This document shows, piece by piece, positions 1,208 to 29,576 of a DNA stretch of 31,741 bases. Made by a program: the position numbers and the translations under genes. Source of the stretch: a virus; IMG/VR virus record IMGVR_UViG_3300007511_001211, positions 1 to 31,741 of that record; one strand, written 5' to 3'. Every line of letters begins with the position of its first letter. The first letter of the stretch is position 1. Below the pieces are notes generated by a model. It had not been told where the DNA came from. It was given only the letters and a program-made list of their open reading frames with translations, and did no database searches.

Positions 1208-1217
1208 ACTATTTATA
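1208..1217 (+). promoter_or_regulatory. Putative phage promoter motif ACTATTTATA
   Basis: Copy of the ACTATTTAT motif that recurs upstream of gene blocks in this window. It lies 3 nt after the protease stop and about 22 nt before the ATG of the Cys-rich peptide gene. Promoter function is inferred from recurrence and placement only. Confidence 0.5.
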
Positions 1218-1238: not shown

Positions 1239-1343
1239 ATGAAACTCGTACTTCACAAGTTGGTTAATCTTTTTAATGATAAGCACTGTTGCTGTTGCTG
1301 CGGATGCTGCTCCTGCTCGGGGTGCAAAGGAGAATGCAAGTGA
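1239..1343 (+). CDS. Tiny cysteine-rich, metallothionein-like peptide
   Basis: A 34-residue open frame with 10 cysteines packed into its last 18 residues: five in a row, then a Gly, then CC, CxC and CxxC-type spacings ending CKGECK. The N-terminal 16 residues are an ordinary helix-like stretch (MKLVLHKLVNLFNDKH). It is the first frame after a putative promoter. Its stop overlaps the next start as GTGA, and the AAGGAG for the next gene lies inside its 3' end, which is the arrangement of translationally coupled phage genes. Clustered Cys with CxC and CxxC spacing is typical of metallothioneins, so binding of Zn, Cu or Cd is possible. A disulfide-rich peptide or a mere leader peptide cannot be excluded. 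The upstream GGGGGG is a weak ribosome-binding site. Confidence 0.5.
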   Translation: MKLVLHKLVNLFNDKHCCCCCGCCSCSGCKGECK

Positions 1344-1804
1344 AAATTAAAGAATCTAAGCTAAGAGAAATTATAAAACAAACGATCTATACAGAGGTTG
1401 GTAGGCGGGCTATTAACGAAGGCCGCATTGATGAACTTTTTGGTTTATTTGGTGGCGGCAAGAAAGGGAAGAAGGGTAATGTTGTTACTTTAGATAATCC
1501 CGATAAACACACCGGACAGCTTCAGAAAGCTTTTAATGAAATTGGTGGAGCAATGTCAGGCATGGGTGCAAAAGCTATTCCACAATTATTTTCAAATTTG
1601 GCAAAGGCTTTTGCTAAAGGTGGGACAGCCCCTCACGACGAAAACCTTCTTGCTAAAGCTATGATTGAATTTAAAGACCTGAAAGCAAAAGGTTCGATGC
1701 GTGGCTTTGATGGCGTTGAAGAGATGTTGCTTAGTCTAAAGAACAAGCAAATAGGTGACCAGTCCGTTGATAAATTTATGAATGCAATGCTGAAGCTAAC
1801 CTAA
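1340..1804 (+). CDS. MKI-tag small protein with shifted cleavage site (candidate internal head protein)
   Basis: A 154-residue protein. I place the start at GTG 1340 because AAGGAG (1327-1332) sits 7 nt upstream and because this start gives the N-terminus shared with its relatives (M/V-KIKESKLREIIKQ). The upstream in-frame ATGs lie inside the Cys-rich peptide gene and lack a ribosome-binding site. Residues 1-33 align without gaps to the gene at 8738. Both continue to an (I/L)-x-E followed by G at residue 27, then D-E-L/F and a Gly-rich linker (LFGGG). The rest is a helical domain I do not recognise. It heads the tag-protein array, 12 nt before the next member. A packaged internal head protein is my inference. 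Confidence 0.7.
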   Translation: MKIKESKLREIIKQTIYTEVGRRAINEGRIDELFGLFGGGKKGKKGNVVTLDNPDKHTGQLQKAFNEIGGAMSGMGAKAIPQLFSNLAKAFAKGGTAPHDENLLAKAMIEFKDLKAKGSMRGFDGVEEMLLSLKNKQIGDQSVDKFMNAMLKLT

Positions 1805-1816
1805 TTGGGATAAAAA

Positions 1817-3004
1817 ATGAATCTCAAAGATCACTTAATAGAACTTATTAACGAAGTCACTCAAGGTGAGATGGAGTTTGCTGAATTAGAAGCAGCCCGT
1901 CAAAACTACAAAGAAAATTTTAGAGACGACGAGGCACGCCACCAGTTTGGAATGATGGTAGAAAAACTCGTAGAACCTATTATGAGTGAGATGGGACTTT
2001 TTTTGGAGGCTGAAGCATTTTATAATCGTGGCGAGATTGTGTTTACCAACTATAAGAACATAGATGTAACGATTGACCCGCTTGGGATGATGGGAAGATA
2101 TGATGTTCAGGTGACACCACTCGCTGGCTCGGAAGGCGAAATCAACCCAATGGAGATAAGCCTTGATAGCATGAAAGGCGTCGCCCAATTTATCAAAGAT
2201 GAATACCGGGATCAACTATCCCGAGGCGGAACATATGAACAACCACCAAGAGGAATGGTCGGCGAACCAGAAGGACAAATGGAATTGCCCTTACCCAGGG
2301 AGAGTAAAATGAGAATTACAAAATCACAACTACAACAAATTATTCGGGAAGAAACCAAAAACCTCAAAGAAGCCGCTTCTCGGGAACAGATTGAAAACTA
2401 TCTCAGAGACATAGCCGACGGCATGGCTGCCGATGGGCTGAACCCCATGGCAATCAAAATGGGTCTCAACGATGAGTTCATGGATAACTTTGCCGGAATG
2501 GGCGTTCCCTATGGTGCGTTTGAGGAATTTATAGAAGAACTAGCAATGGACGCCGGAGGTGGCATTCGTGTGGAGAACAAAACGAAAATCACGAAGACTC
2601 AACTACAGCAAATCATCAAAGAAGAGATGGAAGCTGAACTTAGCGAAGATAAGTACGCCACCGAGGATGACCGCCCTCTGGGAACAGGTCGCTCTTTGAT
2701 GAGTGCCGAAGACGCAAAAAAAGCATCCAGAATGGCTGACAGGTTATATAGCATTCTCGGACCAGACAGTAGCGTTGACTCAGCAGCCAGAATTTTGGTT
2801 CGGCGACTCTCTTACCTCCTGAAGAGGGGTATCGCTGGTGGGCGTCCCGAACCCGAAGGACTGGGAGGACCCTCTTCTGCGGCAGAAATGGAAGATTACG
2901 AAAGCGATTATCGTGACCCGCCAAGCAAGCCACTCAAAACGGGCAAAGGTCGCCGAGGACCAAGCAAGGCTCAACTTGATATGATGAAGGACTACGACAT
3001 ATGA
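1817..3004 (+). CDS. Three-module fused tag protein (polyprotein-like)
   Basis: A 395-residue protein built from three consecutive modules. Residues 1-164 start MNLKDHLIELINE. Residues 165-255 start with a full tag (MRITKSQLQQIIREE) whose Met is an in-frame ATG at 2309 with a GGGAG a few bases upstream, so internal initiation is possible. Residues 256-395 start with a tag whose first codon is ACG instead of ATG (2582-2584), giving TKITKTQLQQIIKEE. Each tag is followed by an unrelated, mostly helical acidic domain. The layout looks like separate neighbouring genes that became fused by loss of stops. If the tag is a cleavage signal for the phage protease, the product would be processed into separate peptides. 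The stop overlaps the next start as ATGA. Domain functions are unknown. Confidence 0.72.
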   Translation: MNLKDHLIELINEVTQGEMEFAELEAARQNYKENFRDDEARHQFGMMVEKLVEPIMSEMGLFLEAEAFYNRGEIVFTNYKNIDVTIDPLGMMGRYDVQVTPLAGSEGEINPMEISLDSMKGVAQFIKDEYRDQLSRGGTYEQPPRGMVGEPEGQMELPLPRESKMRITKSQLQQIIREETKNLKEAASREQIENYLRDIADGMAADGLNPMAIKMGLNDEFMDNFAGMGVPYGAFEEFIEELAMDAGGGIRVENKTKITKTQLQQIIKEEMEAELSEDKYATEDDRPLGTGRSLMSAEDAKKASRMADRLYSILGPDSSVDSAARILVRRLSYLLKRGIAGGRPEPEGLGGPSSAAEMEDYESDYRDPPSKPLKTGKGRRGPSKAQLDMMKDYDI

Positions 3005-3330
3005 AAATCACAAAATCACAACTACGAAAGATTATCAAAGAGGAACTCAAAGAAGCCGGACTCCCACACAGTATGCGGTCAGGAAGATCTATGGGCGACT
3101 TAGACAGGGAAGCAAAAATGAGAGAAACAGATTTCCTCGCTAAGAAGTCAACAGAACTTGACCTCGCCAGAGACGCCGCCCGACCTGCTGACCCGATTGG
3201 ACCAGATGATGCCTATGCAATTGCCGAGGTACTTACGGACTTGGGCTTTACTCTTACACGAGGCGGAATGAACAAGTTTGCTGATTTCCTTATTGACCTA
3301 GAAGCCTCCGAAGATTTACGGAGAACATAA
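3001..3330 (+). CDS. MKITK-tag small protein (candidate internal head protein)
   Basis: A 109-residue protein with the exemplary tag MKITKSQLRKIIKEEL at its N-terminus, then a polar linker rich in charged residues (about 17-60) and a helical C-terminal domain (about 61-109). The domain is unlike those of its neighbours and I do not recognise it. The start overlaps the previous stop (ATGA) and the stop overlaps the next start (TAATG), so translation is probably coupled along the array. The tag contains I-K-E at residues 12-14, matching the (L/I)-x-E consensus of T4-type prohead protease. Confidence 0.72.
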   Translation: MKITKSQLRKIIKEELKEAGLPHSMRSGRSMGDLDREAKMRETDFLAKKSTELDLARDAARPADPIGPDDAYAIAEVLTDLGFTLTRGGMNKFADFLIDLEASEDLRRT

Positions 3331-3593
3331 TGAAAATCACCAAGTCTCAACTACGAAAGATCATTAAAGAAGAACTCCAAGCGGAAGCAGCCGAAGACCC
3401 TCGTGCCCCATCGCCCAAGTCTTATGAATATCCCGATGCTGGCAGCAGCTTCCGAAGAGCGGTAATGAACATGGTCCTTCAAAATGTTGACCTATCGGTG
3501 CCCCCCGGAAAAAGAGAACAACTCATCAACGACATTCAGTTGGCGTTTGATGCCGCCGGCATCGGCGGACCTATTAGCAGGATGGAACAATAA
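3330..3593 (+). CDS. MKITK-tag small protein (candidate internal head protein)
   Basis: An 87-residue protein. Its first 16 residues are identical to those of the gene at 3001, yet six of those 16 codons differ synonymously, so the peptide rather than the DNA is conserved. A Pro/Ser-containing linker leads into a helical domain (about 35-80) that differs from the neighbours. It overlaps both flanking genes by one base (TAATG at each end). Function unknown. Packaging into the head is inferred from the shared tag. Confidence 0.72.
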   Translation: MKITKSQLRKIIKEELQAEAAEDPRAPSPKSYEYPDAGSSFRRAVMNMVLQNVDLSVPPGKREQLINDIQLAFDAAGIGGPISRMEQ

Positions 3594-3883
3594 TGAAAAT
3601 CACAAAGACCCAACTACGAAAGATTATCAAAGAAGCCATCGGCGAAGAGAACGCTTTGATGAAGACTATTAATCGCTGGTCCGAAGAAGGAAAAGATGTT
3701 CCTGTCGGAAAAACGGTAGGAAGAGCAGAGCGCAGCGACCAACTAGACGCAATTCTACAACACATGAGCACGGACCTCGGAAAAGCCATGGATGTTGTTT
3801 CTTACTTGGTAATGAACACTGACCAAGCCGTCCTTGATAAGTGGTTTGAAGGACGAGGCTTGCTCGGAGACCCAGGAGCATAA
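3593..3883 (+). CDS. MKITK-tag small protein (candidate internal head protein)
   Basis: A 96-residue protein starting MKITKTQLRKIIKEA. The I-K-E followed by Ala at residue 15 is the closest match in the array to the T4 targeting-sequence junction (IAE followed by Ala in T4 IPIII). The remaining roughly 80 residues look like a compact helical domain with a GRGLLG tail that I do not recognise. The start overlaps the previous stop (TAATG), and the next tag gene begins 1 nt after its stop. Confidence 0.72.
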   Translation: MKITKTQLRKIIKEAIGEENALMKTINRWSEEGKDVPVGKTVGRAERSDQLDAILQHMSTDLGKAMDVVSYLVMNTDQAVLDKWFEGRGLLGDPGA

Positions 3884-3884
3884 A

Positions 3885-4142
3885 ATGAAAATAACAAAAC
3901 AACAACTACAAAAAGTTATTAGAGAAGAAGTCACAAAGGCTCTGCGTGAAGACGCCAGCGACGACACCTTTGAAATGGTGGATGTAATCGTCCAGGCACT
4001 AGGACCACAACAAGCCCTTGAAGAACTAGTCCAAGCTATGGAACGCTCCAACGCCCAAGACCTTCTTGGTTATGTTATGCAAATGCACGACATGCGTATG
4101 CCGGGCGACGAAGTTGAAGACTACAAGCCCAGCGATTTTTAG
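3885..4142 (+). CDS. MKITK-tag small protein (candidate internal head protein)
   Basis: An 85-residue acidic protein starting MKITKQQLQKVIREE. An in-frame ATG 51 nt upstream lies inside the preceding gene. I chose 3885 because it restores the tag and has a nearby AGGAG (3874-3878). After the tag there is a predicted mostly helical domain with many Asp/Glu/Gln and Met residues. I-R-E at residues 12-14 fits the protease consensus. Function unknown. Confidence 0.72.
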   Translation: MKITKQQLQKVIREEVTKALREDASDDTFEMVDVIVQALGPQQALEELVQAMERSNAQDLLGYVMQMHDMRMPGDEVEDYKPSDF

Positions 4143-4151
4143 GCAAACAAA

Positions 4152-4361
4152 ATGAAAATCACAAAATCTTTACTTCAACAGATTATCAAAGAAGAACTCC
4201 TCAAAGAGCGAGTTTCTTCTGGGGTTGAAGAGATTGACGAGAAGATACAAGAAGTAGAGGATTTCATCAGAGAAAGAATAGATTCTCTAGACATGATTGA
4301 TTTTGCCGCACTACTTGGCGCTTTGAAGGTAAGAATAAAAAATAAGCTCGGACAAGAATAG
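4152..4361 (+). CDS. MKITK-tag small protein, last of the first array
   Basis: A 69-residue protein starting MKITKSLLQQIIKEEL, followed by a predicted helical hairpin (about 25-69) rich in Glu, Ile and Lys. It is the shortest member of the array and closes it. Downstream there is a 64-nt gap before the Mre11/Rad50 gene. I-K-E at 12-14 fits the prohead-protease consensus. The body domain is not recognised. Confidence 0.7.
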   Translation: MKITKSLLQQIIKEELLKERVSSGVEEIDEKIQEVEDFIRERIDSLDMIDFAALLGALKVRIKNKLGQE

Positions 4362-4425
4362 CCCAGCCTAAACACCCCAAACATCATCTGATACAATAAG
4401 ACACACTGACAGAAGGAGTGCGCCT

Positions 4426-7400
4426 ATGGTGCGGATAGCACATTTTGGGGATACCCATATCAAAAACCTGAAATATCATTATGAATATCGTAAGGCATTT
4501 GAGCATATCTACGAGACCCTGCGGAGGGAGAACGTAGATTACATTGTTCATTGTGGCGACTTGGCTCACACAAAAACACAACTCTCACCAGAGTATTTTG
4601 AGCTAGCCACAGATTTCCTAAAGAACTTGGCTGACATCGCCGAGACCCATATCATCCTCGGCAATCACGACGGCAACCTACGGAACAGCAGCCGCCAAGA
4701 TGCTATCACTCCAATTGTGGAAGCACTTAACCACCCAAGTCTAATTCTACACAAGTATTCCGGGGAAATGTTTCTGGAGGATAATCTCTCCTTAAATATA
4801 ATGTCCATTTTTGACGAAACCAATTGGCTCGACCCCGCCGACCCAGACGCAATCAACATCGCTCTTTATCACGGAGCAATTAATAATAGCCAAACAGACC
4901 TCGGCTGGGTGATGGACCACGGCGACCACGACATTTCGGTGTTTGACAAGTTTGACTATGCCATGTTGGGCGACATCCACAAGACCAATCAGGTTCTCAA
5001 CGAGAGCGGGACTATCCGCTATTGTGGCTCTACTATCCAGCAAAATCACGGCGAGACAAACGACAAGGGCTTTTTGATTTGGGACATCAAAAGCAAAACC
5101 CACTATGATGTGAAGCATCACCTCGTCAAAAATGTCAAACCCTTTATGACGATTGAACTCACAGAGAAGGGCAACATCCCACGCAAGTTGGATATCCCAG
5201 AAGGTGCCCGACTGCGTGTGGTGACGCACCACAAAGTCTCACTAGACAAAATCCGCCGTGTGATGGATATTGTCAAAACCCGTTTCAAGCCTGAGAGCCT
5301 CTCTTTTGTAAATAAAGCGGGACTAAAACGAGACAGCGTAAATGTTGACGACCTTGGCAATACGGAGAACCTACGAGACCCCGCAGTCCAAGAGCGATTA
5401 ATTCGGGAATACCTAAAAGAATATGAACCCGATACCAAGACATTAGAAAAGGTTTTCCAACTAAATTCCAAGTACGACAGCTATGTCAACGGCGATGAGG
5501 CTGGGCTACGAAATGTAGAGTGGTCGCTGAAAAAGATGGAGTGGGACAACCTATTCAATTACGGAGAAGGCAACACCGTCAATTTTGAGAAACTCAACGG
5601 CGTTGTCGGCATCTTCGGTAAAAACTATTCAGGCAAGAGTTCTGTTGTTGACAGTATGCTTTACACGGTGTATAATTCAATTAGCAAGAACAACCGCAAG
5701 AACCTAAACATCATTAACCAGAATAAGCCCTCTGGCTGCGGACGAGTCGAGATTGATGTATCAGGCAAGACCTACATCATTGAGCGGAAGTCCGAGAAGT
5801 ACACTCGCAAACTTCACGGAGAAGAAACCGAAGAAGCCAAGACCGATGTAGAGTTCACGGTGATTGACCCAGCCACCAACGAGGAAACTAGCCTCAACTC
5901 GCTGGATCGCAACGGCACAGACAAAGCAATTCGGCGAATCTTTGGAACAATTGACGACTTTTTGCTAACAAGTATGTCCAGCCAGATGGGTGCGATGACC
6001 TTCATCAACGAGGGTTCAACCAAGCGCAAGGAAATCCTCGCCAAATTTTTAGACCTTGACCAGTTTGAGAAGAAGTTTAGGCGCTCTAAGGAGGACAGCA
6101 TAGAAACCCGAGCCCTGCTCAGAAAATTGGAAGATAATACTTTTGATGAAGATATTACGCAACTCCTCGGAGAACTGACCGATAATGAAAAAGCAAGGGA
6201 AAAGCAGGAAAGGAAATGCGAGAAACTAACCACCGAGTTAGAGACCATTTCCGAGCGAGTCAAAGAGATTGATGGACTTTTCGCATCTGCCCCTGTTGAA
6301 CTTATCAACATCGGAAAAGAGACAGCAAGACTTGCGACAGCAGGACAAGAGCGGTCTGATTACAATCTCAAAATTGCCCAGACTAAAAACCAAAAGAAAG
6401 ATGTTTTGGAACAAGCGAAAGTCCTCAAAGGACTGCTAGACAAAACAGATGTGTCAGCACTCAAAGAAAAGATTACAGAGTGCGAAGGCATCCAAAAAGA
6501 ACTCACCAGCTTAGAAGCAGAGATAAATCTGCGGGAAACCCAAAAAGAAAACTACGAGAAGAAGGTTAGTATTCTCGGCGAAGTGCCCTGCGGACCCGAG
6601 TTCTCCCATTGTAAATTTATCAAGGACGCCTATGAGTCCAAGTCTCTGCTGGGTGACTGCCGCAAAAGTCTGATGGCTCTCCGCCGCCGCCACAACCAGT
6701 TGACAACCAAACTGGAAGGTATGGATGTAGAGACACTAGAATCAGAGCGGAACCTCTACAACGACAGGGACAAGGAATATGCTGACCTCTGCACCGAGGC
6801 AACCAACCTTGACCTATCTTTGGCGCAGATAAAAAATAAACTCCACCTCCTCACCAACGAGATGGCAAGCATCAAAACAAAAATTGAGGTTTATGAATTA
6901 AACAAGGAAGCAATTGAGAACCGAGAGGAACTCATCAAAGAGCAAGATGACCTCAAAGAAAAGTCCATCAAAATGGAAAGCGACATTGTTATCTGCGAAA
7001 CCAAGGTGCTTGACCTTGTAAAACAGCACGGCGGCATTGAAACCCAGATTGAAAACATCAAAGACAAACAACAAGAACTGGAAGACCTGCGGACTGACTA
7101 CGCTGCCTACGATTTGTTCATGCGCTGCACTCATCCTAATGGCATCAGTTATGATGTGGTGAAGCGGATGCTACCTCTTATCAACGAGGAGATCAGCACG
7201 GTGCTTGCCAACGTCACCGACTTCGACATCTTTTTCGAGGCAGAAAAGAATAAATTAGACATCTTCATCAAACATCCAAAGTACGAAGCACGACCTTTAG
7301 AGATGGCTTCTGGAGCAGAAAAAACGCTCGCAGCCATCGCCATCCGCATCGCCCTAACCAATGTGTCAACCCTACCAAAATCTGACATTATGATTATGGA

Positions 7401-7578
7401 TGAACCGGGCACAGCCTTGGACGCCGAAAACCTTGAAGGCTTTATGCGAGTGATGGAAATGATCAAGGGCTACTACAAAACTGTGCTTTTGATTACTCAC
7501 TTGGATAGTCTCAAAGATATTGCGGATATGACTATTGACATTGAGCGTCAAGATGGGTATGCTTTCGTATCTCAATAA
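4426..7578 (+). CDS. gp47-gp46: Fused Mre11-Rad50 recombination nuclease (T4 gp47 + gp46 in one chain)
   Basis: A 1050-residue single polypeptide. Residues 1 to about 345 are an Mre11/SbcD/gp47 metallophosphatase: GDTH (Asp9, His11), GD at 44-45, GNHD at 79-82, a conserved His149 and GDIH at 182-185. Residues from about 364 are a Rad50/SbcC/gp46 ATPase: Walker A GKNYSGKS (398-405), a Q-loop near 520, a long coiled coil (about 545-890), signature SGAEKTLA (962-969), Walker B with Asp992/Glu993, and the H-loop His1025. The hook region has Cys722 and Cys729 (CGPEFSHC) instead of the usual CxxC. In T4 the two proteins are separate, and the complex resects DNA ends for recombination-dependent replication and host DNA degradation. 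No stop or frameshift separates the halves. AAGGAG precedes the start. Confidence 0.95.
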   Translation: MVRIAHFGDTHIKNLKYHYEYRKAFEHIYETLRRENVDYIVHCGDLAHTKTQLSPEYFELATDFLKNLADIAETHIILGNHDGNLRNSSRQDAITPIVEALNHPSLILHKYSGEMFLEDNLSLNIMSIFDETNWLDPADPDAINIALYHGAINNSQTDLGWVMDHGDHDISVFDKFDYAMLGDIHKTNQVLNESGTIRYCGSTIQQNHGETNDKGFLIWDIKSKTHYDVKHHLVKNVKPFMTIELTEKGNIPRKLDIPEGARLRVVTHHKVSLDKIRRVMDIVKTRFKPESLSFVNKAGLKRDSVNVDDLGNTENLRDPAVQERLIREYLKEYEPDTKTLEKVFQLNSKYDSYVNGDEAGLRNVEWSLKKMEWDNLFNYGEGNTVNFEKLNGVVGIFGKNYSGKSSVVDSMLYTVYNSISKNNRKNLNIINQNKPSGCGRVEIDVSGKTYIIERKSEKYTRKLHGEETEEAKTDVEFTVIDPATNEETSLNSLDRNGTDKAIRRIFGTIDDFLLTSMSSQMGAMTFINEGSTKRKEILAKFLDLDQFEKKFRRSKEDSIETRALLRKLEDNTFDEDITQLLGELTDNEKAREKQERKCEKLTTELETISERVKEIDGLFASAPVELINIGKETARLATAGQERSDYNLKIAQTKNQKKDVLEQAKVLKGLLDKTDVSALKEKITECEGIQKELTSLEAEINLRETQKENYEKKVSILGEVPCGPEFSHCKFIKDAYESKSLLGDCRKSLMALRRRHNQLTTKLEGMDVETLESERNLYNDRDKEYADLCTEATNLDLSLAQIKNKLHLLTNEMASIKTKIEVYELNKEAIENREELIKEQDDLKEKSIKMESDIVICETKVLDLVKQHGGIETQIENIKDKQQELEDLRTDYAAYDLFMRCTHPNGISYDVVKRMLPLINEEISTVLANVTDFDIFFEAEKNKLDIFIKHPKYEARPLEMASGAEKTLAAIAIRIALTNVSTLPKSDIMIMDEPGTALDAENLEGFMRVMEMIKGYYKTVLLITHLDSLKDIADMTIDIERQDGYAFVSQ

Positions 7579-7783
7579 AATAAAATACCACTGGGAGTGT
7601 GGACGACATTCCAATATACCTCGGTGTTGTATCCTGTGGTTTATTGGTCCGTGGAGAATAGCATTGAGAGTTCCCAGACTTTGGGCTATGTTTTATGAAA
7701 ATGATTCACACTATATTCGGTGCCCCTTGTGCAGGGTTAGAAATCGCCGGAACAAAATAAAAGAGTGCGACTGTGAGATATGA
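7559..7783 (+). CDS. Small protein with possible zinc-binding C-terminus
   Basis: A 74-residue frame that begins inside the last 20 nt of the Mre11/Rad50 gene. An in-frame ATG at 7553 is an alternative start. It is rich in Trp, Arg and Cys and ends with CPLC about 16 residues before CDC, which could form a zinc-binding unit. The ribosome-binding site is weak. Support comes from its stop overlapping the next start (ATGA, 7780-7783) and from filling an otherwise empty 200-nt gap. Function unknown. Confidence 0.45.
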   Translation: MLSYLNKIKYHWECGRHSNIPRCCILWFIGPWRIALRVPRLWAMFYENDSHYIRCPLCRVRNRRNKIKECDCEI

Positions 7784-7959
7784 GAGCAGGTGATCTTGTT
7801 AGATTTAAATACTCGGGTGGAGATGCCGAGGGGTGGAAAGTTGGGCTACTCAAAGAATACCACACTTGGGAGAAAGTAGCAACCATTATTTATGAGGGAA
7901 AAGACATCCGAGTAATGGCGGGTCTTGTTCAAATACATAAAAGAGCAAAACGTCTATAG
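7780..7959 (+). CDS. Tiny SH3-like barrel protein, unknown function
   Basis: A 59-residue frame. It begins MRAGDLVRFKY and has alternating hydrophobic strands (VGLLKEY, KVATIIYEG, IRVMAGLVQI), the pattern of a small SH3/KOW-like beta barrel. The start overlaps the preceding stop as ATGA, and a putative promoter for the next gene follows 4 nt after the stop. The strand pattern and phage-like packing support it as real. The fold is my inference. Confidence 0.55.
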   Translation: MRAGDLVRFKYSGGDAEGWKVGLLKEYHTWEKVATIIYEGKDIRVMAGLVQIHKRAKRL

Positions 7960-7963
7960 AGAG

Positions 7964-7973
7964 ACTATTTATT
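7964..7973 (+). promoter_or_regulatory. Putative phage promoter motif ACTATTTATT
   Basis: Exact copy of the recurring ACTATTTAT motif in a 41-nt intergenic gap, 27 nt before the ATG at 8001. The gap also holds a GAGGAG-type ribosome-binding site. Confidence 0.5.
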
Positions 7974-8000
7974 TTATATTATATCAGAGGAGCGGCTCAA

Positions 8001-8666
8001 ATGAAAAACATGAAGCTTATTATGGAGTCATGGAGAACCTATGTTACAGAACAAGGTATGCTCGACGACCCAGGTTTAGCACCTTCCGGTGGAAAAGTCA
8101 CAGGAAATCCCCAAATAGACCAAAAAATGTTTGATTATTTTAAGGAGTTTTTGCCTGGTGGTTCTCGCCACGGAGAAGATCCTGAACTTTGCGAACTGGA
8201 TATTGAGGGCACGAAACTTATGTGTCAAGATAACAAGGGTCTTGCAAGAAGCGTAATGCCTCAACTTAAAACAGCAGACGATCAAGATTTGGCAGAAGCG
8301 TTTGCCGACTATCTTGAGAGCCAAGGACACTCAGTATCAGAGACAACAGAACTTGCTTCGAACCTGAAAGCCACACAAAACCAATTAAAAGGAGCAAAGG
8401 TCAACGGCATGAACTCAGCCCTTGTGTCCACCGATGGAAAACATGATAAAATTCGAGCCCCAATTATTGTTAGCAGTGATAACTATGTTCTCGACGGACA
8501 CCACCGTTGGGCGTCTCAGGTAGTTTACGACTTTATGAATGGCACGCCAGGCGTTGAAGTTGCCGTCAGAAAGGTAAGTCTTCCCATCGATGAACTGCTG
8601 GAGCTATCTAAGTATGATGGAGAGTTTTGCCAGACTAATGGGTGTGTTCCCCCCCAAGGGAGATAA
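8001..8666 (+). CDS. ParB/Srx-like domain protein with MKLIMESW-type N-terminus
   Basis: A 221-residue protein. Residues 156-190 contain a strand followed by LDGHHRW (164-170) and a helix, the signature of the ParB N-terminal/sulfiredoxin-like fold. In ParB-type proteins this motif helps bind nucleotide or phosphate. The middle (about 30-140) is helical and not recognised. The N-terminus (MKNMKLIMESWRTYVTEQG) is not the MKITK tag but is similar in size and in ending with x-T-E, recalling T4 targeting peptides (MKTYQEFIAE). An alternative start is the ATG at 8010. A putative promoter lies just upstream, and two tag proteins follow. The domain is probable. The biochemical role (nuclease, NTPase or DNA binding) is not known. 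Confidence 0.72.
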   Translation: MKNMKLIMESWRTYVTEQGMLDDPGLAPSGGKVTGNPQIDQKMFDYFKEFLPGGSRHGEDPELCELDIEGTKLMCQDNKGLARSVMPQLKTADDQDLAEAFADYLESQGHSVSETTELASNLKATQNQLKGAKVNGMNSALVSTDGKHDKIRAPIIVSSDNYVLDGHHRWASQVVYDFMNGTPGVEVAVRKVSLPIDELLELSKYDGEFCQTNGCVPPQGR

Positions 8667-8699
8667 ATGTAACAAACGGGGGAGAAAGCAAGAAAGTAA

Positions 8700-8709
8700 A
8701 CTATTTATT
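8700..8709 (+). promoter_or_regulatory. Putative phage promoter motif ACTATTTATT
   Basis: Exact copy of the recurring motif, 28 nt before the ATG at 8738. It is followed by the ribosome-binding site TAGGAGGGG. The roughly 33 nt before it hold no gene. Confidence 0.5.
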
Positions 8710-8737
8710 ATTAGTTCTCCTAGGAGGGGCTCACAAA

Positions 8738-9190
8738 ATGAAAATTAAAAAGTCTAATTTAGAAAAACTAGTTCGAGAAGCCATTTACGCAGAGGTGGGT
8801 CGAAAGGTCCTCGCTGAAGGTCGTGTTGATGAATTTCTTGGCGGACTTTTCGGCGGCGGCGACATCGACCTTGGAGAAAAGAGTGCCGCAGCGCAGGAGC
8901 TAATGTATTACAAACCAGAAAGCGGCGGCGTTGGAAAAAAGATCCAAGATGCGATTGATGCGGGGTTGGATGATTACGTGACAATTCAACAAGTTTGGAA
9001 CAAATTGGGCGAAGCCGTAGTCAATGGTCATTTTTTGGACGGCAAGGACCCAATGGTCAAAAAGATTAAGAAAAGCTGGGCTAATAAACAAGAGGAGCCC
9101 CGCCGATCCATGTATGAGATGATCTTCGAAAAAGGCTCGTCACTCGACGTACAGAAAGCCATTGAAGCGCAAATTGGAAGGGCAAAATAA
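8738..9190 (+). CDS. MKI-tag small protein with shifted cleavage site (candidate internal head protein)
   Basis: A 150-residue protein starting MKIKKSNLEKLVREAIYAEV. Its first 33 residues align gaplessly with those of the gene at 1340, including E27-G28, D31-E32 and a following Gly-rich segment. The body domain (about 45-150) is different, helical and not recognised. The start at 8738 has a strong AGGAGG 12 nt upstream; an in-frame upstream start at 8642 lies in the preceding gene. The usual I-K-E is replaced by V-R-E here, but L-A-E occurs at residues 25-27. It is followed 1 nt later by another tag gene. Confidence 0.72.
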   Translation: MKIKKSNLEKLVREAIYAEVGRKVLAEGRVDEFLGGLFGGGDIDLGEKSAAAQELMYYKPESGGVGKKIQDAIDAGLDDYVTIQQVWNKLGEAVVNGHFLDGKDPMVKKIKKSWANKQEEPRRSMYEMIFEKGSSLDVQKAIEAQIGRAK

Positions 9191-9191
9191 A

Positions 9192-9515
9192 ATGAAAATA
9201 ACAAAAACATACCTGAGAAAAGTTATTAAAGAAGAACTAAGCAATCTTAAAGAAGCGGAAGACCCTAAAGAATTGGTGGGACTTATGGTGAGTAAGTTGG
9301 CCCCTCTAAAGGGAAAAATTGAAGCTGCCTCAAAAACAGTAGACCTCAAACTAGCCCTCGTAAAGGCTTTGTTATCTCACCCAGAAACATTTGCAATGGA
9401 CGAAGGCGAACTAGACAAAGCATTTGCAATGCTCAAGAGATCTGTCCAAAAAGGACAAGAAACTGCCAAACAGCAAGCAAAAGCCCCCGCCCCCGCAACA
9501 GGCCGGCCTGAATAA
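9192..9515 (+). CDS. MKITK-tag small protein (candidate internal head protein)
   Basis: A 107-residue protein starting MKITKTYLRKVIKEEL. A helical domain at about 25-85 is followed by an Ala/Pro/Lys/Gln-rich flexible tail. The start at 9192 restores the tag; an upstream in-frame ATG (9162) lies inside the preceding gene. I-K-E at 12-14 fits the prohead-protease consensus. The body is not recognised. Confidence 0.7.
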   Translation: MKITKTYLRKVIKEELSNLKEAEDPKELVGLMVSKLAPLKGKIEAASKTVDLKLALVKALLSHPETFAMDEGELDKAFAMLKRSVQKGQETAKQQAKAPAPATGRPE

Positions 9516-10067: not shown

Positions 10068-11204
10068 ATGGTAGATATTCCTACACTTGACATCGAGGAT
10101 TACGATCCCGACCTAAACGAAGAAGAGGAGGCTGTTGAGGACAAGGCCGGCGGCGCTCTTACTTATGCTATTGTAGGCGCTGGCCAAGGCGGCGGACGTA
10201 TGGCTAAAGCGTTTTATGATATGGGTTATACCAAGACGGTTGCTGTAAATACAGCCCGTTCTGATTTAAATGGGCTTGATATACCTGACAATCAAAAATT
10301 CCTTGTTGACGAACACGGCGAGCAAGGTGCCGGCAAAGACCAAAAAAAGGCTCAAGCCGCAATCGAACGAAAGGAGCAAGAAGTATTCAATTTGTTCCGT
10401 GAAGTTTTCGGTAGCAACGTTGACCGTATCTTGATTTGCTTAGGTGTCTCCGGCGGCTCTGGCGGTGGAACAGTTAACACTCTTATTAAGGTTGCCAAGA
10501 AGTATTTCACTTATATTGGCGTAGAGGATGTTGATAAGCGTGTTGGTGTTGTGGCATCTCTGCCCACAGCAGGTGAGTCCGCATCCCCCACCGTTGCCAA
10601 GAATGCTCATGCTCGGATCACTGATCTTTGCGTGCAAGCAGAAAAAGGAAAGATTGCCCCTCTTATTATGGTGGATAACGAAAAGATTAAAAAGCTTTAC
10701 CCCAAACTTACAGTGAAGAAGTTTTGGAAGACCATCAACAACACAGTTGCAGGTTTGTTCCATGTATTTAACGTCCTTGCCAATAAGGATTCAGAGTACA
10801 CCACGTTTGATGCCACGGATTATGATAGCGTTATGCGCCAGTCTGGGTGTATGATTATGGGCGTGACAACTGTTAAAGATGTTGAGAATGAAACCGCTGT
10901 CTCAACTGCGCTTAAAAAGAATCTTGAGAAAACACTTCTCGCCGAAGGTTTTGACCTGACTACGGCAACGGGCGCTGCTTGTATTGTGGTGGGTGGAGAA
11001 GTCATTTTTGAGGAGACTGCTGGACTGATGGACAACATTGAGTTCGGGTTTGACACTTTGGCTGCTCTAACAGGTGGAGCCATTATTCATCGTGGCATCT
11101 ATGAAGATGATAAGCGTGATAAGCTGGTTGCCTATACTTTGGTTAGCGGTCTCCTGCGTCCTGCCAAACGTATCGAGGGGCTCAAAAAGTTCCTGAAGAA
11201 ATAA
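10068..11204 (+). CDS. Tubulin/FtsZ-family GTPase (phage tubulin-like)
   Basis: A 378-residue protein. After an acidic N-terminal tail (1-27) come the nucleotide-binding elements of the tubulin/FtsZ superfamily in order: IVGAGQGGGR (35-44), a VAVNTARSDLNGL segment (58-70), the GAGKDQKKA loop (87-95) and a glycine-rich tubulin-signature-like loop GVSGGSGGGT (126-135) followed by a helix. The signature is G-S-x-GGG rather than the usual GGGTGTG, so GTP binding is likely but diverged. Phage tubulins such as PhuZ form filaments that position DNA or capsids, and TubZ segregates plasmids. Here the gene lies between membrane/lysis-type genes and the packaging genes, 11 nt after the previous stop with AAGGAG upstream. 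I do not know of a T4 counterpart. Confidence 0.82.
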   Translation: MVDIPTLDIEDYDPDLNEEEEAVEDKAGGALTYAIVGAGQGGGRMAKAFYDMGYTKTVAVNTARSDLNGLDIPDNQKFLVDEHGEQGAGKDQKKAQAAIERKEQEVFNLFREVFGSNVDRILICLGVSGGSGGGTVNTLIKVAKKYFTYIGVEDVDKRVGVVASLPTAGESASPTVAKNAHARITDLCVQAEKGKIAPLIMVDNEKIKKLYPKLTVKKFWKTINNTVAGLFHVFNVLANKDSEYTTFDATDYDSVMRQSGCMIMGVTTVKDVENETAVSTALKKNLEKTLLAEGFDLTTATGAACIVVGGEVIFEETAGLMDNIEFGFDTLAALTGGAIIHRGIYEDDKRDKLVAYTLVSGLLRPAKRIEGLKKFLKK

Positions 11205-17799: not shown

Positions 17800-18393
17800 A
17801 TGACTAAGAAATATGTCTTACAAGAGTTTATGAATCTGGATTATAGCGATGAACTTCTTACGGAAGAAGAGCGTGAAGGCAACAAGAGTGGTATCCACCT
17901 CGTTTTGGCAGGCAAAATTCAAGCCGCTGGTAAAAAGAACGGAAATGGACGTATTTACCCCCGACCCATTTTGGAACGGGAAATGAAAAACTATGAAAAG
18001 CTTGTCAAAGAAGGTCGAGCCATCGGCGAACTCGACCACCCTGACAGTTCCGTAGTAGAATTAAAAAATGCTAGCCACCTTGTCACAGAAGTGTGGTGGA
18101 AGGGCGACGATGTGATGGGAAAAATGAAAATTCTTAACACGCCCGCCGGTAAAATAGCCAAAGATCTCGTAAAGGGCGGCGTCCAGCTTGGTATTTCCAG
18201 TCGTGGACTGGGGTCTACCCGCCAAGAGGGCAGCACCACTATGGTTGAGGACGATTTTCAGCTTCTTTGCTTTGACTTGGTTTCGGAACCAAGCACTAGC
18301 GGGGCTTATTTGGTTGCCGAAGGCAAAGTGAACACCCACCTCACCAAGGCAGACCGTATCAACCGTGCCCTGAACGACGTTTTAGGGGATTAA
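17800..18393 (+). CDS. gp21: Prohead core protease (T4 gp21-like serine protease)
   Basis: A 197-residue protein, close to T4 gp21 (212). It shows the herpesvirus-type prohead-protease features: a conserved GNGRIYPR segment (48-55), His80 in GELDHP, and the serine motif GISSRG (131-136, Ser133/134), followed by a core strand LLCFDLVSEPS. The enzyme sits in the prohead core and cleaves scaffold, capsid and internal proteins at (L/I)-x-E sites before DNA packaging. This matters for the tagged small proteins elsewhere in the window. AAGGAG precedes the ATG, with a GC-rich hairpin just upstream. Confidence 0.93.
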   Translation: MTKKYVLQEFMNLDYSDELLTEEEREGNKSGIHLVLAGKIQAAGKKNGNGRIYPRPILEREMKNYEKLVKEGRAIGELDHPDSSVVELKNASHLVTEVWWKGDDVMGKMKILNTPAGKIAKDLVKGGVQLGISSRGLGSTRQEGSTTMVEDDFQLLCFDLVSEPSTSGAYLVAEGKVNTHLTKADRINRALNDVLGD

Positions 18394-19528: not shown

Positions 19529-19538
19529 ACTATATACT
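19529..19538 (+). promoter_or_regulatory. Variant of the putative promoter motif (ACTATATACT)
   Basis: It resembles the recurring ACTATTTAT motif with one or two changes. It sits 11 nt after the fibre-like gene's stop and 31 nt before the tag protein ATG at 19569. Weaker than the exact copies. Confidence 0.3.
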
Positions 19539-19568: not shown

Positions 19569-19955
19569 ATGAAAAAATCGGAACTTAAAAATATTATTAA
19601 AGAATGCGTCAAAGAAGTGATCTTTGAGGAAGGCGTCCTCTCGGGCATCATCTCGGAAGTAGCCCAGGGATTACAGGGTGCATCCTTGGTCCAAGAATCC
19701 ACACCACCGCCCAAGCCACAACGGCAAAATGTGTCGGAAGCCAAAAAGCAAGTTTTGTCAGCCATTGGGAACAATGGATATGACCATGTAAAACAGAAGT
19801 TTTCTAACCCTGAGCTTTTTGAAGGAACGACCCCGATACCTGGCGATAGCAAGGGTCCTTTAGCGGGAGTTGCCGGAGGTGACCCTGGAGTAGATATTAG
19901 TAACCTGCCTGGAATGGGCAAATGGGGAGCAGTTGCTTCCGGAATAAGAAAGTGA
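19569..19955 (+). CDS. MKKSEL-type tag protein in the head cluster
   Basis: A 128-residue protein starting MKKSELKNIIKECVKEVIFE, a shortened variant of the MKITK tag with the same K-S-x-L-x-x-I-I-K-E core. I-K-E is at residues 10-12 and a second candidate site (I-F-E) at 18-20. The rest is Gly/Pro/Ser-rich with little secondary structure (PPPKPQ near 48, several Gly-rich stretches), unlike the helical cargo of other tag proteins. An in-frame GTG at 19545 is an alternative start. Both have weak ribosome-binding sites. Its presence between protease and scaffold genes supports a head role for the tag family. Confidence 0.65.
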   Translation: MKKSELKNIIKECVKEVIFEEGVLSGIISEVAQGLQGASLVQESTPPPKPQRQNVSEAKKQVLSAIGNNGYDHVKQKFSNPELFEGTTPIPGDSKGPLAGVAGGDPGVDISNLPGMGKWGAVASGIRK

Positions 19956-20740: not shown

Positions 20741-20750
20741 ACTATATATT
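20741..20750 (+). promoter_or_regulatory. Variant of the putative promoter motif (ACTATATATT)
   Basis: It differs by one base from ACTATTTATT. It is in an 84-nt gap, 35 nt before the scaffold gene ATG (20785), and is followed by the ribosome-binding site AAAGGGGG. This would allow separate transcription of the scaffold and capsid genes. Confidence 0.4.
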
Positions 20751-20784: not shown

Positions 20785-21789
20785 ATGTCAAATATGCTGG
20801 ATCAGGCAATCGTTGACGCCCAAGCACTTCGAGAAGCAGCTATCAAGAGTGCTGAAAAAGCGGTGGTTGAAAAATATGCCCCCGAAGTAAAACAAGCGAT
20901 TCAGCAGCTTTTGGAACAGGATCCAGGCGAAGAGGAAATGGGTCTAGACCCCCTGGCAGGAGAAGAGGAAGAGGAAAGTCCGATCATGGCTGACGTCCCT
21001 ATGTCCCACGACCCTGACCAAGCAGAAGAAGAAATAGTCGTTGTGGATCTTGATCAGATTATTGCTGCTGCCGAAGACGACGCTGACGCAGGCGAAGAAG
21101 AATTTGAGCTTGGGCGGGATGATCTAGCTGCCGAGGTGGGTATTGACTTAGAAGAGCCCATCGCCGCAGCAAATAGAGATGATGAAATCGAAATCAACGA
21201 AAATGAGTTGATGGATATGTTTAAAGAAATGCTTGTTGTTGACGTAGACGAGCAAGATATAAAAGTTGCCGAAGAGGCTGTTGAGGCTGAAAAGGAAGAA
21301 GAGGCTGAAGAAGAAGTTTTTGTAGCATCTGTCGCCGATGACGGAATGGATAAAAAAGACATAGAAGATGCAAGCAGAGAAACAGCCCGCCTTCAGATGA
21401 AGAATGAGCAACTGACGAAACAAAACAAAGAATTAAAGAGCCTTATCATTAAGGTTAAAGATAGATTAGAAGAAGTTAACCTATCAAATGCTAGGTTACT
21501 ATATGCGAATCGTGTTCTACAAGACACCTCCTTGAATGAGCAGCAAAAAACTAAAATTGCTGAGTTGGTCGGTGGCGCACGGTCGGTGGAAGAAGCGAAG
21601 ATGGTCTTTGAGACCCTTCAAAAGACAATGGCGGGTAATTCTGGAAAGAAATCCACACAATCGTTGTCTGAAGCAGTATCAAGAAGATCTTCAGTTATTC
21701 TTAGTGGACGCCGCACGGAAGAAAACACCGACGGTAATCCGGTAGTAAATCGCTGGGCTACGCTCGCAGGTATAAACAATAAAAAATAA
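20785..21789 (+). CDS. gp22: Prohead scaffolding core protein (T4 gp22-like)
   Basis: A 334-residue, strongly acidic, helical protein with long Glu/Asp-rich stretches (about 47-200) and a coiled coil at about 192-240, ending in a basic, Ser-rich tail. Composition, size class and position directly before the major capsid gene fit T4 gp22 (269 residues), the assembly core that the prohead protease degrades. L-R-E-A at residues 15-18 and L-L-E near 44 fit the protease's (L/I)-x-E consensus. Overall sequence similarity to T4 is not obvious by eye. Confidence 0.82.
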   Translation: MSNMLDQAIVDAQALREAAIKSAEKAVVEKYAPEVKQAIQQLLEQDPGEEEMGLDPLAGEEEEESPIMADVPMSHDPDQAEEEIVVVDLDQIIAAAEDDADAGEEEFELGRDDLAAEVGIDLEEPIAAANRDDEIEINENELMDMFKEMLVVDVDEQDIKVAEEAVEAEKEEEAEEEVFVASVADDGMDKKDIEDASRETARLQMKNEQLTKQNKELKSLIIKVKDRLEEVNLSNARLLYANRVLQDTSLNEQQKTKIAELVGGARSVEEAKMVFETLQKTMAGNSGKKSTQSLSEAVSRRSSVILSGRRTEENTDGNPVVNRWATLAGINNKK

Positions 21790-21806: not shown

Positions 21807-23582
21807 ATGTCTATGATTGACACACTAACAGAAGGCATCAGACAACGCTCTCTTGCCAATGAAGGTGAAGCTCTACTCTCCAAGTGGGAGAAGACTGGTC
21901 TTCTTGAGGGACTTAGTGACCACAGCCGTGGTTACATGGCTCGCCTCTTGGAAAACCAGGCTGCTCAATTGCTCAAGGAGCAAACCACGATGCAAGCAGG
22001 AGATGTTGAAGGCTTTGCCTCAGTTGCTTTCCCAATCGTTCGCCGTGTTTTCGGTGGATTGTTGGCTCAGGACCTTGTTTCGGTCCAACCCATGAGTCTA
22101 CCCAGTGGACTCATTTTCTTTATGGACTTCGTGTACAGTCCCGATAGCGCCACAGGCGACGCTGACCAAAGTGGTAGTGTCCACCGCCTCGGTGCTACTG
22201 GCGACGAATCCATTTACGGTCAAGGACGAGTCGGTCGTCAGATCATGAGCGGTGCCAATTTGGCTGACGCTGCTGGTCAGAAGAGCTTCTACGACCTTGG
22301 TAACGGATTTTCGAGCCCCACAGGTTCGATCACGGGTATTACCATCATTGCTTCGGGTACGTTCGGTGCGAACGAATCTTCGGCTGATGTTAAGACCCTT
22401 CGTCGTGACCCAGATCTGATCTCGGGTACTTCGACGTTCGTTATTGGTGAGTTCGACATTGCTAACAGCGATGGTGTGAACACTGACAACCTTGCTGCTC
22501 TCGTGGTTTCGGGTACCAATGGTGCTGGTAACCTTGGTGTCAAGGCTGTTGCAGATACTAACGGTGGCGGATACCACGCCCGCCGCTTGACCCAATTCTC
22601 GGGAACAAGAACCGACAGAATTCTTGTTGTGGGCGTTAGCCGCAACGCTTCGCTTTCATCGGTTCAGCTTTCTGAGTCCATGGGTGGATTTACTGCTGGC
22701 GGTGCCTCCGTCGGTGGTATTGTGTACTTCCCGAAGACTGACGAATTTGTCGCCGCAGGCGATCCTTTCGGCGCTCTTGCAGGTAGTAACAGCAACCAAA
22801 GCTGGGGACTTGAAGCTAATCAGCAGATCCCAGAGATCGACATCAAGGTGGACAGCACCGCTGTCACAGCGGTCACCAAGAAGCTCAAGGCTAAATGGAG
22901 CCCCGAGCTTGCTCAGGACTTGAACGCTTATCACAACCTCGACGCTGAAGTTGAGTTGACAAGCATTCTTTCCGAGCAGATCGCTCTTGAAATCGATCAA
23001 GAGATCCTTTCGGATCTGGTCGCTGGTGCATCCGCTGACACGCTTTACTGGAGCCGTCGCCCTGGTAAGTTCCTTAGCCGCAATGACGGTAGCGACCTTA
23101 CCAACAGCTTGGCTCCGACCTTCACAGGTACGGTGAGCGAGTGGTACGAGACTCTTCTTGAGACCATTAATGATCTCAGTGCTCGTATGCACCGCAAGAC
23201 GCTTCGTGGCGGCGCAAACTTCTTGGTTTGCTCTCCTGAAGTGGCTTCCCTCCTTGAGTTCACCAGTGGATTCAAGGCGAGCGTCAAGGCTGACGAAGAC
23301 AAGGGCTCTTGGGGCGCTGTCAACGTTGGTAGCTTGAGTCGCAAGATGGATATCTATGTTGATCCTTACTTCATCCGGAACGTGGTTCTGGTCGGACGTA
23401 AGGGAAGTAGCTTCCTTGAAAGCGGCTATGTGTACGCTCCGTATGTTCCGCTGCAAGTCACGCCGACCATTTTTGGTACAGAAGATTTCGTGCCCCGCAA
23501 GGGTGTCATGACTCGCTATGCCAAGAAGATGGTGCGTCCTGATATGTACGGGCTTGTTGTTGTCTATGATCTTAACGGTTAA
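21807..23582 (+). CDS. gp23: Major capsid protein (T4 gp23-like)
   Basis: A 591-residue protein, longer than T4 gp23 (521). The N-terminal 58 residues look like the cleaved delta domain, with a candidate protease site L-K-E-Q at 56-59. The region after it (FASVAFPIVRRVF, then DLVSVQPMSLPSG at about 89-101) matches gp23's conserved MVRR...VQPM segment. The C-terminal HK97-fold portion includes NFLVCSPEVASLLE, a DIYVDPYF strand and a VLVGRKG turn. It forms the hexamers of the head. A strong AGGAG precedes it, a terminator follows it, and codon choice is visibly more regular than in its neighbours, as expected for a highly expressed gene. Confidence 0.95.
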   Translation: MSMIDTLTEGIRQRSLANEGEALLSKWEKTGLLEGLSDHSRGYMARLLENQAAQLLKEQTTMQAGDVEGFASVAFPIVRRVFGGLLAQDLVSVQPMSLPSGLIFFMDFVYSPDSATGDADQSGSVHRLGATGDESIYGQGRVGRQIMSGANLADAAGQKSFYDLGNGFSSPTGSITGITIIASGTFGANESSADVKTLRRDPDLISGTSTFVIGEFDIANSDGVNTDNLAALVVSGTNGAGNLGVKAVADTNGGGYHARRLTQFSGTRTDRILVVGVSRNASLSSVQLSESMGGFTAGGASVGGIVYFPKTDEFVAAGDPFGALAGSNSNQSWGLEANQQIPEIDIKVDSTAVTAVTKKLKAKWSPELAQDLNAYHNLDAEVELTSILSEQIALEIDQEILSDLVAGASADTLYWSRRPGKFLSRNDGSDLTNSLAPTFTGTVSEWYETLLETINDLSARMHRKTLRGGANFLVCSPEVASLLEFTSGFKASVKADEDKGSWGAVNVGSLSRKMDIYVDPYFIRNVVLVGRKGSSFLESGYVYAPYVPLQVTPTIFGTEDFVPRKGVMTRYAKKMVRPDMYGLVVVYDLNG

Positions 23583-26400: not shown

Positions 26401-26410
26401 ACTATTTATT
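26401..26410 (+). promoter_or_regulatory. Putative phage promoter motif ACTATTTATT
   Basis: Exact copy of the recurring motif in the 100-nt gap before the sheath gene, 64 nt from its ATG. A short AAACTC/GAGTTT hairpin (26372-26387) immediately precedes it at the end of the gp15-like gene and may be a weak terminator. Confidence 0.5.
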
Positions 26411-29566: not shown

Positions 29567-29576
29567 ACTATTTAAA
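29567..29576 (+). promoter_or_regulatory. Variant of the putative promoter motif (ACTATTTAAA)
   Basis: ACTATTTA is intact but the last T of ACTATTTAT is replaced. It is in the 43-nt gap before the tube gene, 18 nt from its ATG, and could give extra tube transcripts. Confidence 0.35.

Follow-up and report, generated by a model that had tools for sequence, protein, structure and literature searches.

A common N-terminal peptide on unrelated proteins of a gp21-bearing phage and its relatives, a probable capsid-targeting tag of the T4 type

The window analyzed here is the entire IMG/VR virus record IMGVR_UViG_3300007511_001211 (31,741 bases), which is probably a fragment of a larger genome because the near-identical contig G046 spans 171,926 bases. 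It holds 11 copies of peptides resembling M-K-I-T-K-x-x-L-x-x-I-I-K-E, plus an apparently decayed twelfth at 1817. This peptide, here called the first tag, probably belongs to a capsid-targeting system of the T4 type whose tag sequences are new and whose cargo set is much larger. The presence of the tag on unrelated protein bodies, an L-x-E motif beyond chance frequency, a protease encoded by the same phage and a DNA motif common to tail genes were computed directly. The available text of PMC9026906 describes propeptides in T4, 10-19 residues long, as directing proteins to the core and as being taken off by the protease gp21 after L/I-x-E; the packaging, cleavage and injection of the T4 internal proteins are described in the available parts of PMC9026906 and PMC12373910.

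A reading of the window from its letters alone (the sequence-only reading) had reported tags opening the open reading frames (ORFs) at 3001, 3330, 3593, 3885, 4152 and 9192, with variants at the starts of 1340, 8738 and 19569 and two more within 1817-3004; all are present, the internal pair at 2309 and 2582. Its count of ten tags with I-(K/R)-E is reached only if the V-R-E of 8738 is included; nine of the 11 carry the form itself, the other exception being the I-K-Q of 1340. Likewise, an array does lie at 1340-9515, but it is not the sole cargo site, as the tag also occurs at 19569; a 172-kb relative of the window has tags at 67,975 and 95,253. The bodies behind the tags differ, as had been stated: three of 66 window pairs exceeded z 4, two of these being overlapping or duplicate entries of one ORF, and the only genuine pair (1340 versus 8738) is weak (z 4.2). 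Pairwise comparison of the codons of the eight window tags (of 11) scoring at least 30 bits gave 159 identical, 111 synonymous and 94 non-synonymous pairs; codons vary while residues are kept, and selection therefore acts on the peptide. Recent duplication as the source of the tags is ruled out by the synonymous change within them. The start of ORF 1817 looks like a decayed tag because its counterpart in the related phage L008 opens with a clear tag and the two align from residue 7. In L008 the tag of module two is followed by a different body, and module three stands alone as a gene with an ATG start of its own; given these differences, modules appear to have been swapped and fused at tag borders. 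A structure model of protein 8738 from one sequence has a helical tag (residues 5-26) at low confidence (pLDDT 51).

Beyond the window, a 15-position tag profile was used whose source tags excluded the window and its two near-identical copies and included the related phage L008/L122. Applied to the window, it returned nine sites of at least 20 bits and 11 of at least 12 bits, whereas 95 random viral loci (811,721 bp) gave 0 sites of at least 12 bits; chance as the source of the tags is ruled out by the 0 profile matches in these 812 kb. A degenerate DNA pattern of the tag matched at least 120 stretches in viral contigs and none of 50 random whole contigs; in 84,980 prokaryote genomes its matches numbered just four, spread over two contigs. 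A contig of 305,838 bases binned in a Methylococcaceae assembly carries gp21 and 31 tags of at least 20 bits, 30 of them on one strand, and 30 of its bodies (at least 30 residues long) showed no mutual blastp match at E 0.001. In a Halobacteriovorax assembly, tags are on a contig of 101,404 bases and gp21 is on a different contig of 108,871 bases. The 392 bodies from all loci fell into 267 clusters, of which 214 are singletons and one has 50 members, and the tag itself is kept across many different contigs. (Note that tag counts include related contigs, so copies are not independent events.) A tblastn search with the bare tag gave nothing informative.

The consensus of 331 distinct tags from other viral contigs reads M-K-I-T-K-s-Q-L-K-Q-I-I-K-E-E-l, followed by a loose stretch with a floating L-x-E; conservation is at background by offset 21 (0.13 bit information). 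In 152 of the 331, the E of the first later [LIVMF]xE falls at offset 19 or 20; in 51, no such site occurs up to offset 59. Regarding the 402 tags of at least 14 bits (window and Flavobacterium phage immuto included), a later site within offsets 13-29 was found in 300, versus 28% of 1057 control windows; this later L-x-E was not demanded by the tag searches. [LIMV]-x-E at offset 12 is present in 388 of the 402, a count that is not independent evidence because the search pattern and regular expression partly required the E there. Thirteen of the 14 tags lacking this first site carry the later one (e.g., 1340, with I-K-Q first and I-N-E later), and (L/I/M/V/F)-x-E within the first 30 residues occurs in 401 of 402, the first site again being partly required. 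At offset 20 the hydrophobic residue and E covary (110 pairs versus 59 expected, p 3e-29, n=374, kinship uncorrected); compared with controls, G, N, Q and S are enriched behind the later site and K, L and V depleted. The cut may fall at the second, later L-x-E rather than directly behind I-K-E, and the later L-x-E may be either a real cut or a helix end.

The gp21 homologue reported at 17800 was borne out by profile and structure matches (Table 1). Its active-site residues H80 and S133/S134 are invariant among the four sequences aligned, T4 gp21 included. In the major capsid protein, LLENQ[A/T]xx[L/V/M]L(K/R/N)E was found upstream of the mature domain in all 28 genes examined (26 contigs, two of them near-identical to the window), with K or R in 27, and a capsid cut at L-(K/R/N)-E is predicted. 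The form (I/L)-(K/R)-E is common to the tag site and this predicted capsid site. Among the T4 sequences compared, the gp23 propeptide ends LTE and gp24 starts MAKINELLRE, where we take its cleavage site to be. The gp23 propeptide has 65 residues (PMC9026906, in the text available). Two tandem major capsid genes were observed in G003 and G047 (L135, L150; L134, L151), contigs of 242 kb and 293 kb.

A second tag, M-K-L-(I/L)-M-E-N-W-R-K-F-(L/V/I)-x-E, opens four genes of G046, including 8001, and was found on 56 distinct proteins overall by a search whose pattern had to match as far as KF in one copy per new contig. Although L-x-E was not required, [LIVMF]-x-E ends at offset 12 in 42 of the 56 distinct tags, and conservation stops there. 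Compared with the T4 tag MKTYQEFIAE, the second tag has MK....E and F-(I/L)-x-E in common, by eye only. The first-tag pattern (at most one mismatch) is present in 15 of the 32 contigs chosen by the second tag. Second-tag genes also occur in tandem arrays (L376, with five; L354, L365 and L366).

Pfam scans were made of hand-picked tag proteins. Above the curated cut-offs were two of the first ten second-tag proteins (L057 GNAT, L074 zeta toxin), four of another ten (L348 zeta toxin, L354 NT5C nucleotidase, L366 GNAT, L364 pentapeptide) and four of ten first-tag proteins (L080 L,D-transpeptidase, L118 GNAT, L084 leucine-rich repeats, immuto gene 190 DUF5661); below them were a protein kinase (L365) and a nucleotidyltransferase (L116), both with the second tag. 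Second-tag protein L357 had a PHROG kinase match (6.4e-7). The DGHHRW protein 8001 had no Pfam match, its ParB-like reading being by eye only, and the likeness of the HYT-type protein L351 to ADP-ribosyltransferases, also seen by eye, is unproven because its model (pLDDT 47) matched no fold at an E of 0.001 or below. Among 147 first-tag proteins, 42 Pfam families were matched at E 0.01, in at most 44 proteins by the counts listed.

PHROG_207 (gp21) was found in 26 of 39 tag contigs and in 11 of the 12 of at least 100 kb; a further 28 contigs had gp21 in 14, including four of five first-tag and seven of 12 second-tag contigs of at least 100 kb. Fifty random contigs had gp21 in seven, one of them weak, and for contigs of at least 30 kb the figures were 22 of 31 with tags versus six of 24 random. 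The link between tag and gp21 holds in these samples, yet it partly reflects contig size, because large random contigs often have gp21 too. The co-occurrence proposed as a check by the sequence-only reading is present in most large first-tag contigs, but 27 tag contigs (13 + 14) had no gp21 match. Of these, 24 were tested further, with an HK97-type protease (PF04586) in none and a sheath gene in one, which fits most of them being fragments that lack the head-tail block; a tag common in phages without gp21 was not seen in the contigs sampled. Searching from the protease instead, the profile found tags at 12 of 80 gp21 loci (reversed profile, 0). The tag DNA pattern with at most two mismatches was present in immuto and in eight of 23 larger gp21-selected contigs, and was absent from T4, Mel-JY01, five random gp21 contigs and the remaining 15 of the 23, three of which have a profile match near gp21. 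The first tag is not universal among gp21 phages.

The motif ACTATTTA occurs ten times in the window, always on the + strand, versus 0.86 copies expected over both strands. Eight copies lie 28-132 nt ahead of ORF starts (1340, 8001, 8738, 9559, 20266, 23723, 26474 and 29595), and those at 15915 and 17578 do not. In G046 the motif is found 17 times on + and three times on -, but the window itself accounts for ten of the 17, so the additions come to just 7 to 3 and include two second-tag genes. The 376 tag genes of other loci have 19 sense and 0 antisense copies in the 110 nt ahead of their starts, one per locus; the remaining 357 have none, as array-internal genes would. In gp21 loci not selected by tag, ACTATWTA was found 151 times on the gp21 strand versus 35 on the other, compared with 31 versus 32 in random loci; TATAAATA, the T4 motif, had no strand bias (2 to 2). 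ACTATTTA is therefore put forward as a candidate late promoter of this clade, which would place the tag genes late in infection. Separately, a conserved stretch with GAATGGATTAG lies upstream of about 20 of the 376 tag genes in other contigs (0 to 1 antisense per 8-mer) and in many loci encodes EWIS in the reading frame of the tag.

T4-type terminase, portal, protease, capsid, sheath and tube genes are all present in the window. A PHROG search with the probable scaffold ORF gave no match. Directly ahead of the tag array, at 402-1205, is a gene for an M50 (site-2 type) peptidase (PF02163 2.9e-57). A Tubulin/FtsZ-like protein with a TubZ-like C-terminal domain is encoded at 10068-11204 (PF00091 1.8e-9, PF22453 1.6e-7), and a single frame of 1050 aa at 4426-7578 combines a phosphoesterase with an SMC-like ATPase, resembling a fusion of T4 gp47 and gp46.

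Table 1. Tag proteins, head genes and motif copies in the window
Feature	Position	Strand	Remarks
ACTATTTA, candidate late promoter of tag array	1208..1215	+	132 nt upstream of GTG 1340
Tagged protein, tag KIKESKLREIIKQ	1340..1804	+	GTG start; no I-x-E at first place, INE kept downstream
Three tagged modules, one ORF	1817..3004	+	apparently decayed tag 1817; clear tags 2309, 2582
Tagged protein MKITKSQLRKIIKEEL	3001..3330	+
Tagged protein MKITKSQLRKIIKEEL	3330..3593	+
Tagged protein MKITKTQLRKIIKEAI	3593..3883	+
Tagged protein MKITKQQLQKVIREEV	3885..4142	+
Tagged protein MKITKSLLQQIIKEEL	4152..4361	+
ACTATTTA	7964..7971	+	37 nt upstream of 8001
Second-tag protein (MKLIMESWRTYVTE from 8010)	8001..8666	+	DGHHRW core
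ACTATTTA	8700..8707	+	38 nt upstream of 8738
Tagged protein MKIKKSNLEKLVREAI	8738..9190	+
Tagged protein MKITKTYLRKVIKEEL	9192..9515	+
gp21-type prohead protease	17800..18393	+	PHROG_207 1e-51; T4 gp21 structure 5jbl 3.7e-17
ACTATATA	19529..19536	+	40 nt upstream of tagged gene 19569
Tagged protein MKKSELKNIIKE	19569..19955	+	between protease and capsid genes
ACTATATA	20741..20748	+	44 nt upstream of probable scaffold ORF 20785
Probable scaffold	20785..21789	+	gp22 position, acidic; assigned by position only
Major capsid protein	21807..23582	+	PHROG_138 1.4e-71; predicted cleavage site LLKE, E58 at 21978-21980
ACTATTTA	26401..26408	+	73 nt upstream of tail sheath gene (26474)
ACTATTTA	29567..29574	+	28 nt upstream of tail tube gene (29595)

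Like T4 IPI, IPII, IPIII and Alt, the present proteins have a short N-terminal peptide with an (L/I)-x-E end on unrelated bodies in a gp21 phage. They are unlike the T4 internal proteins in their tag sequences, in the two tag classes within one lineage, in their mostly acidic bodies, in their fused and C-terminal tags, and in number (at most 31 tags per contig, versus three internal proteins plus Alt in T4). The available text of PMC12373910 describes T4 Ip1-3 as having only the N-terminal leader in common and each blocking a distinct GmrSD type IV restriction enzyme; IPIII is required for infecting one E. coli strain, according to the available part of PMC9391042. In the phiKZ-like Salmonella phage SPN3US, set beside the present system by description, a prohead protease cuts head proteins and proteins are ejected with the genome (PMC5694885, PMC10052503, as far as accessible). 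A cultured relative is Flavobacterium phage immuto (MW353176), whose protease is 48% identical. Tags of the MKKSxL form open its genes 175, 176 and 190 (14.9, 16.4 and 38.7 bits, one above 20); these are the only three tagged genes in 150 of its 160 kb, all annotated as hypothetical proteins. Polyvalent proteins are multi-domain conflict proteins of phages and plasmids (PMC5512222). They are injected and are long single proteins, whereas the present system consists of many short proteins under one tag. No paper listed by a search of mostly open-access literature seems to describe the tags.

The proposal of the sequence-only reading that the tagged proteins are packaged, cleaved and injected is supported in part. 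It fits the presence of gp21 in most large first-tag contigs, the absence of an HK97-type protease from 24 tag contigs without gp21, the gp21 form of the sites, the motif in common with tail genes and the enzyme-like cargo; it is altered by the possible cut at the later L-x-E, the further cargo loci and the second tag class at 8001. Several observations weigh against it. Apart from (L/I)-x-E, the first tag does not clearly resemble T4 MKTYQEFIAE in sequence, and some tags are C-terminal on longer proteins (L018, L050, L073, L105). Most tag bodies of the window are without known function, a PHROG scan giving weak matches only (best E 0.0086). I-K-E is followed by E in 87% of 374 tags, where capsid proteins have A/S/Q/T/G/V, and L-x-E could also arise from a continuing amphipathic helix. 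gp21 is lacking in 13 of 39 tag contigs and in five of 12 second-tag contigs of at least 100 kb, and contig G157 (that of L376, 130.7 kb) combines both tags with a sheath gene, yet gp21 was not matched there; among five random contigs of at least 100 kb, two have gp21 and one more has it weakly. Tag bodies are mostly acidic, not basic (median pI 5.07, 23% above 8.5, n=377), and differ in this from the T4 internal proteins, which are described as basic; a basic charge is a property of those T4 proteins and not of how targeting works.

It is unlikely that the tag proteins are instead parts of the prohead core (like gp67, gp68 and gp22) that co-assemble, are cut up and leave before DNA packaging without a role in the next host. 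They do have the same form of protease site as the capsid protein and the same candidate promoter as the tail genes, 19569 lies between the protease and capsid genes, and many bodies are small and acidic like T4 gp67; core parts should be conserved, however, and the bodies, some with enzyme domains, are too diverse for that (267 clusters from 392). We find it rather improbable that the tag is an uncleaved amphipathic helix docking onto another partner (host membrane or phage structure) with no link to the head, as the helical tag in the model of 8738, the C-terminal tags and a reading of L-x-E as a helix pattern would have it, since the later L-x-E is far above control windows, the second, different tag likewise stops at L-x-E, and the tag genes have a motif in common with tail genes. 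That the shared 5' segment serves mainly as a joint for recombination, or as a translation-start cassette, by which genes are spliced in, its peptide having no targeting role, is very improbable: the swapping at tag borders between the window and L008 and the GAATGGATTAG stretch would suit it, but codons vary while residues stay, and the tag is kept across many contigs.

For the capsid-targeting reading, we infer a sequence of steps: late in infection, the amphipathic N-terminal helix of the tag would dock its protein onto the prohead core, (L/I)-x-E in or just behind the tag would then be cut by the gp21-type protease, and the freed body would remain in the head, enter the next host cell with the DNA and act there against defences or on host functions. 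The second tag would do likewise for often larger, partly enzyme-like proteins. More tentatively, yet quite possibly, these elements may form a packaging code of the whole lineage, with two independent head-address peptides, one protease and up to about 30 injected effectors gained and swapped as tag-body modules, in T4-like phages some of which are jumbo-sized. The T4 tag has already been used for loading foreign proteins into phage heads (PMC9026906, in the available text), and the present peptides, if the capsid-targeting reading is true, would be new testable tags for that purpose. A string of 14 residues would then pick out injected proteins of mostly uncultured phages from sequence alone, and the zeta-toxin, acetyltransferase, nucleotidase and kinase-like proteins, together with the families of unknown function, would be the first candidates for anti-defence or host takeover.

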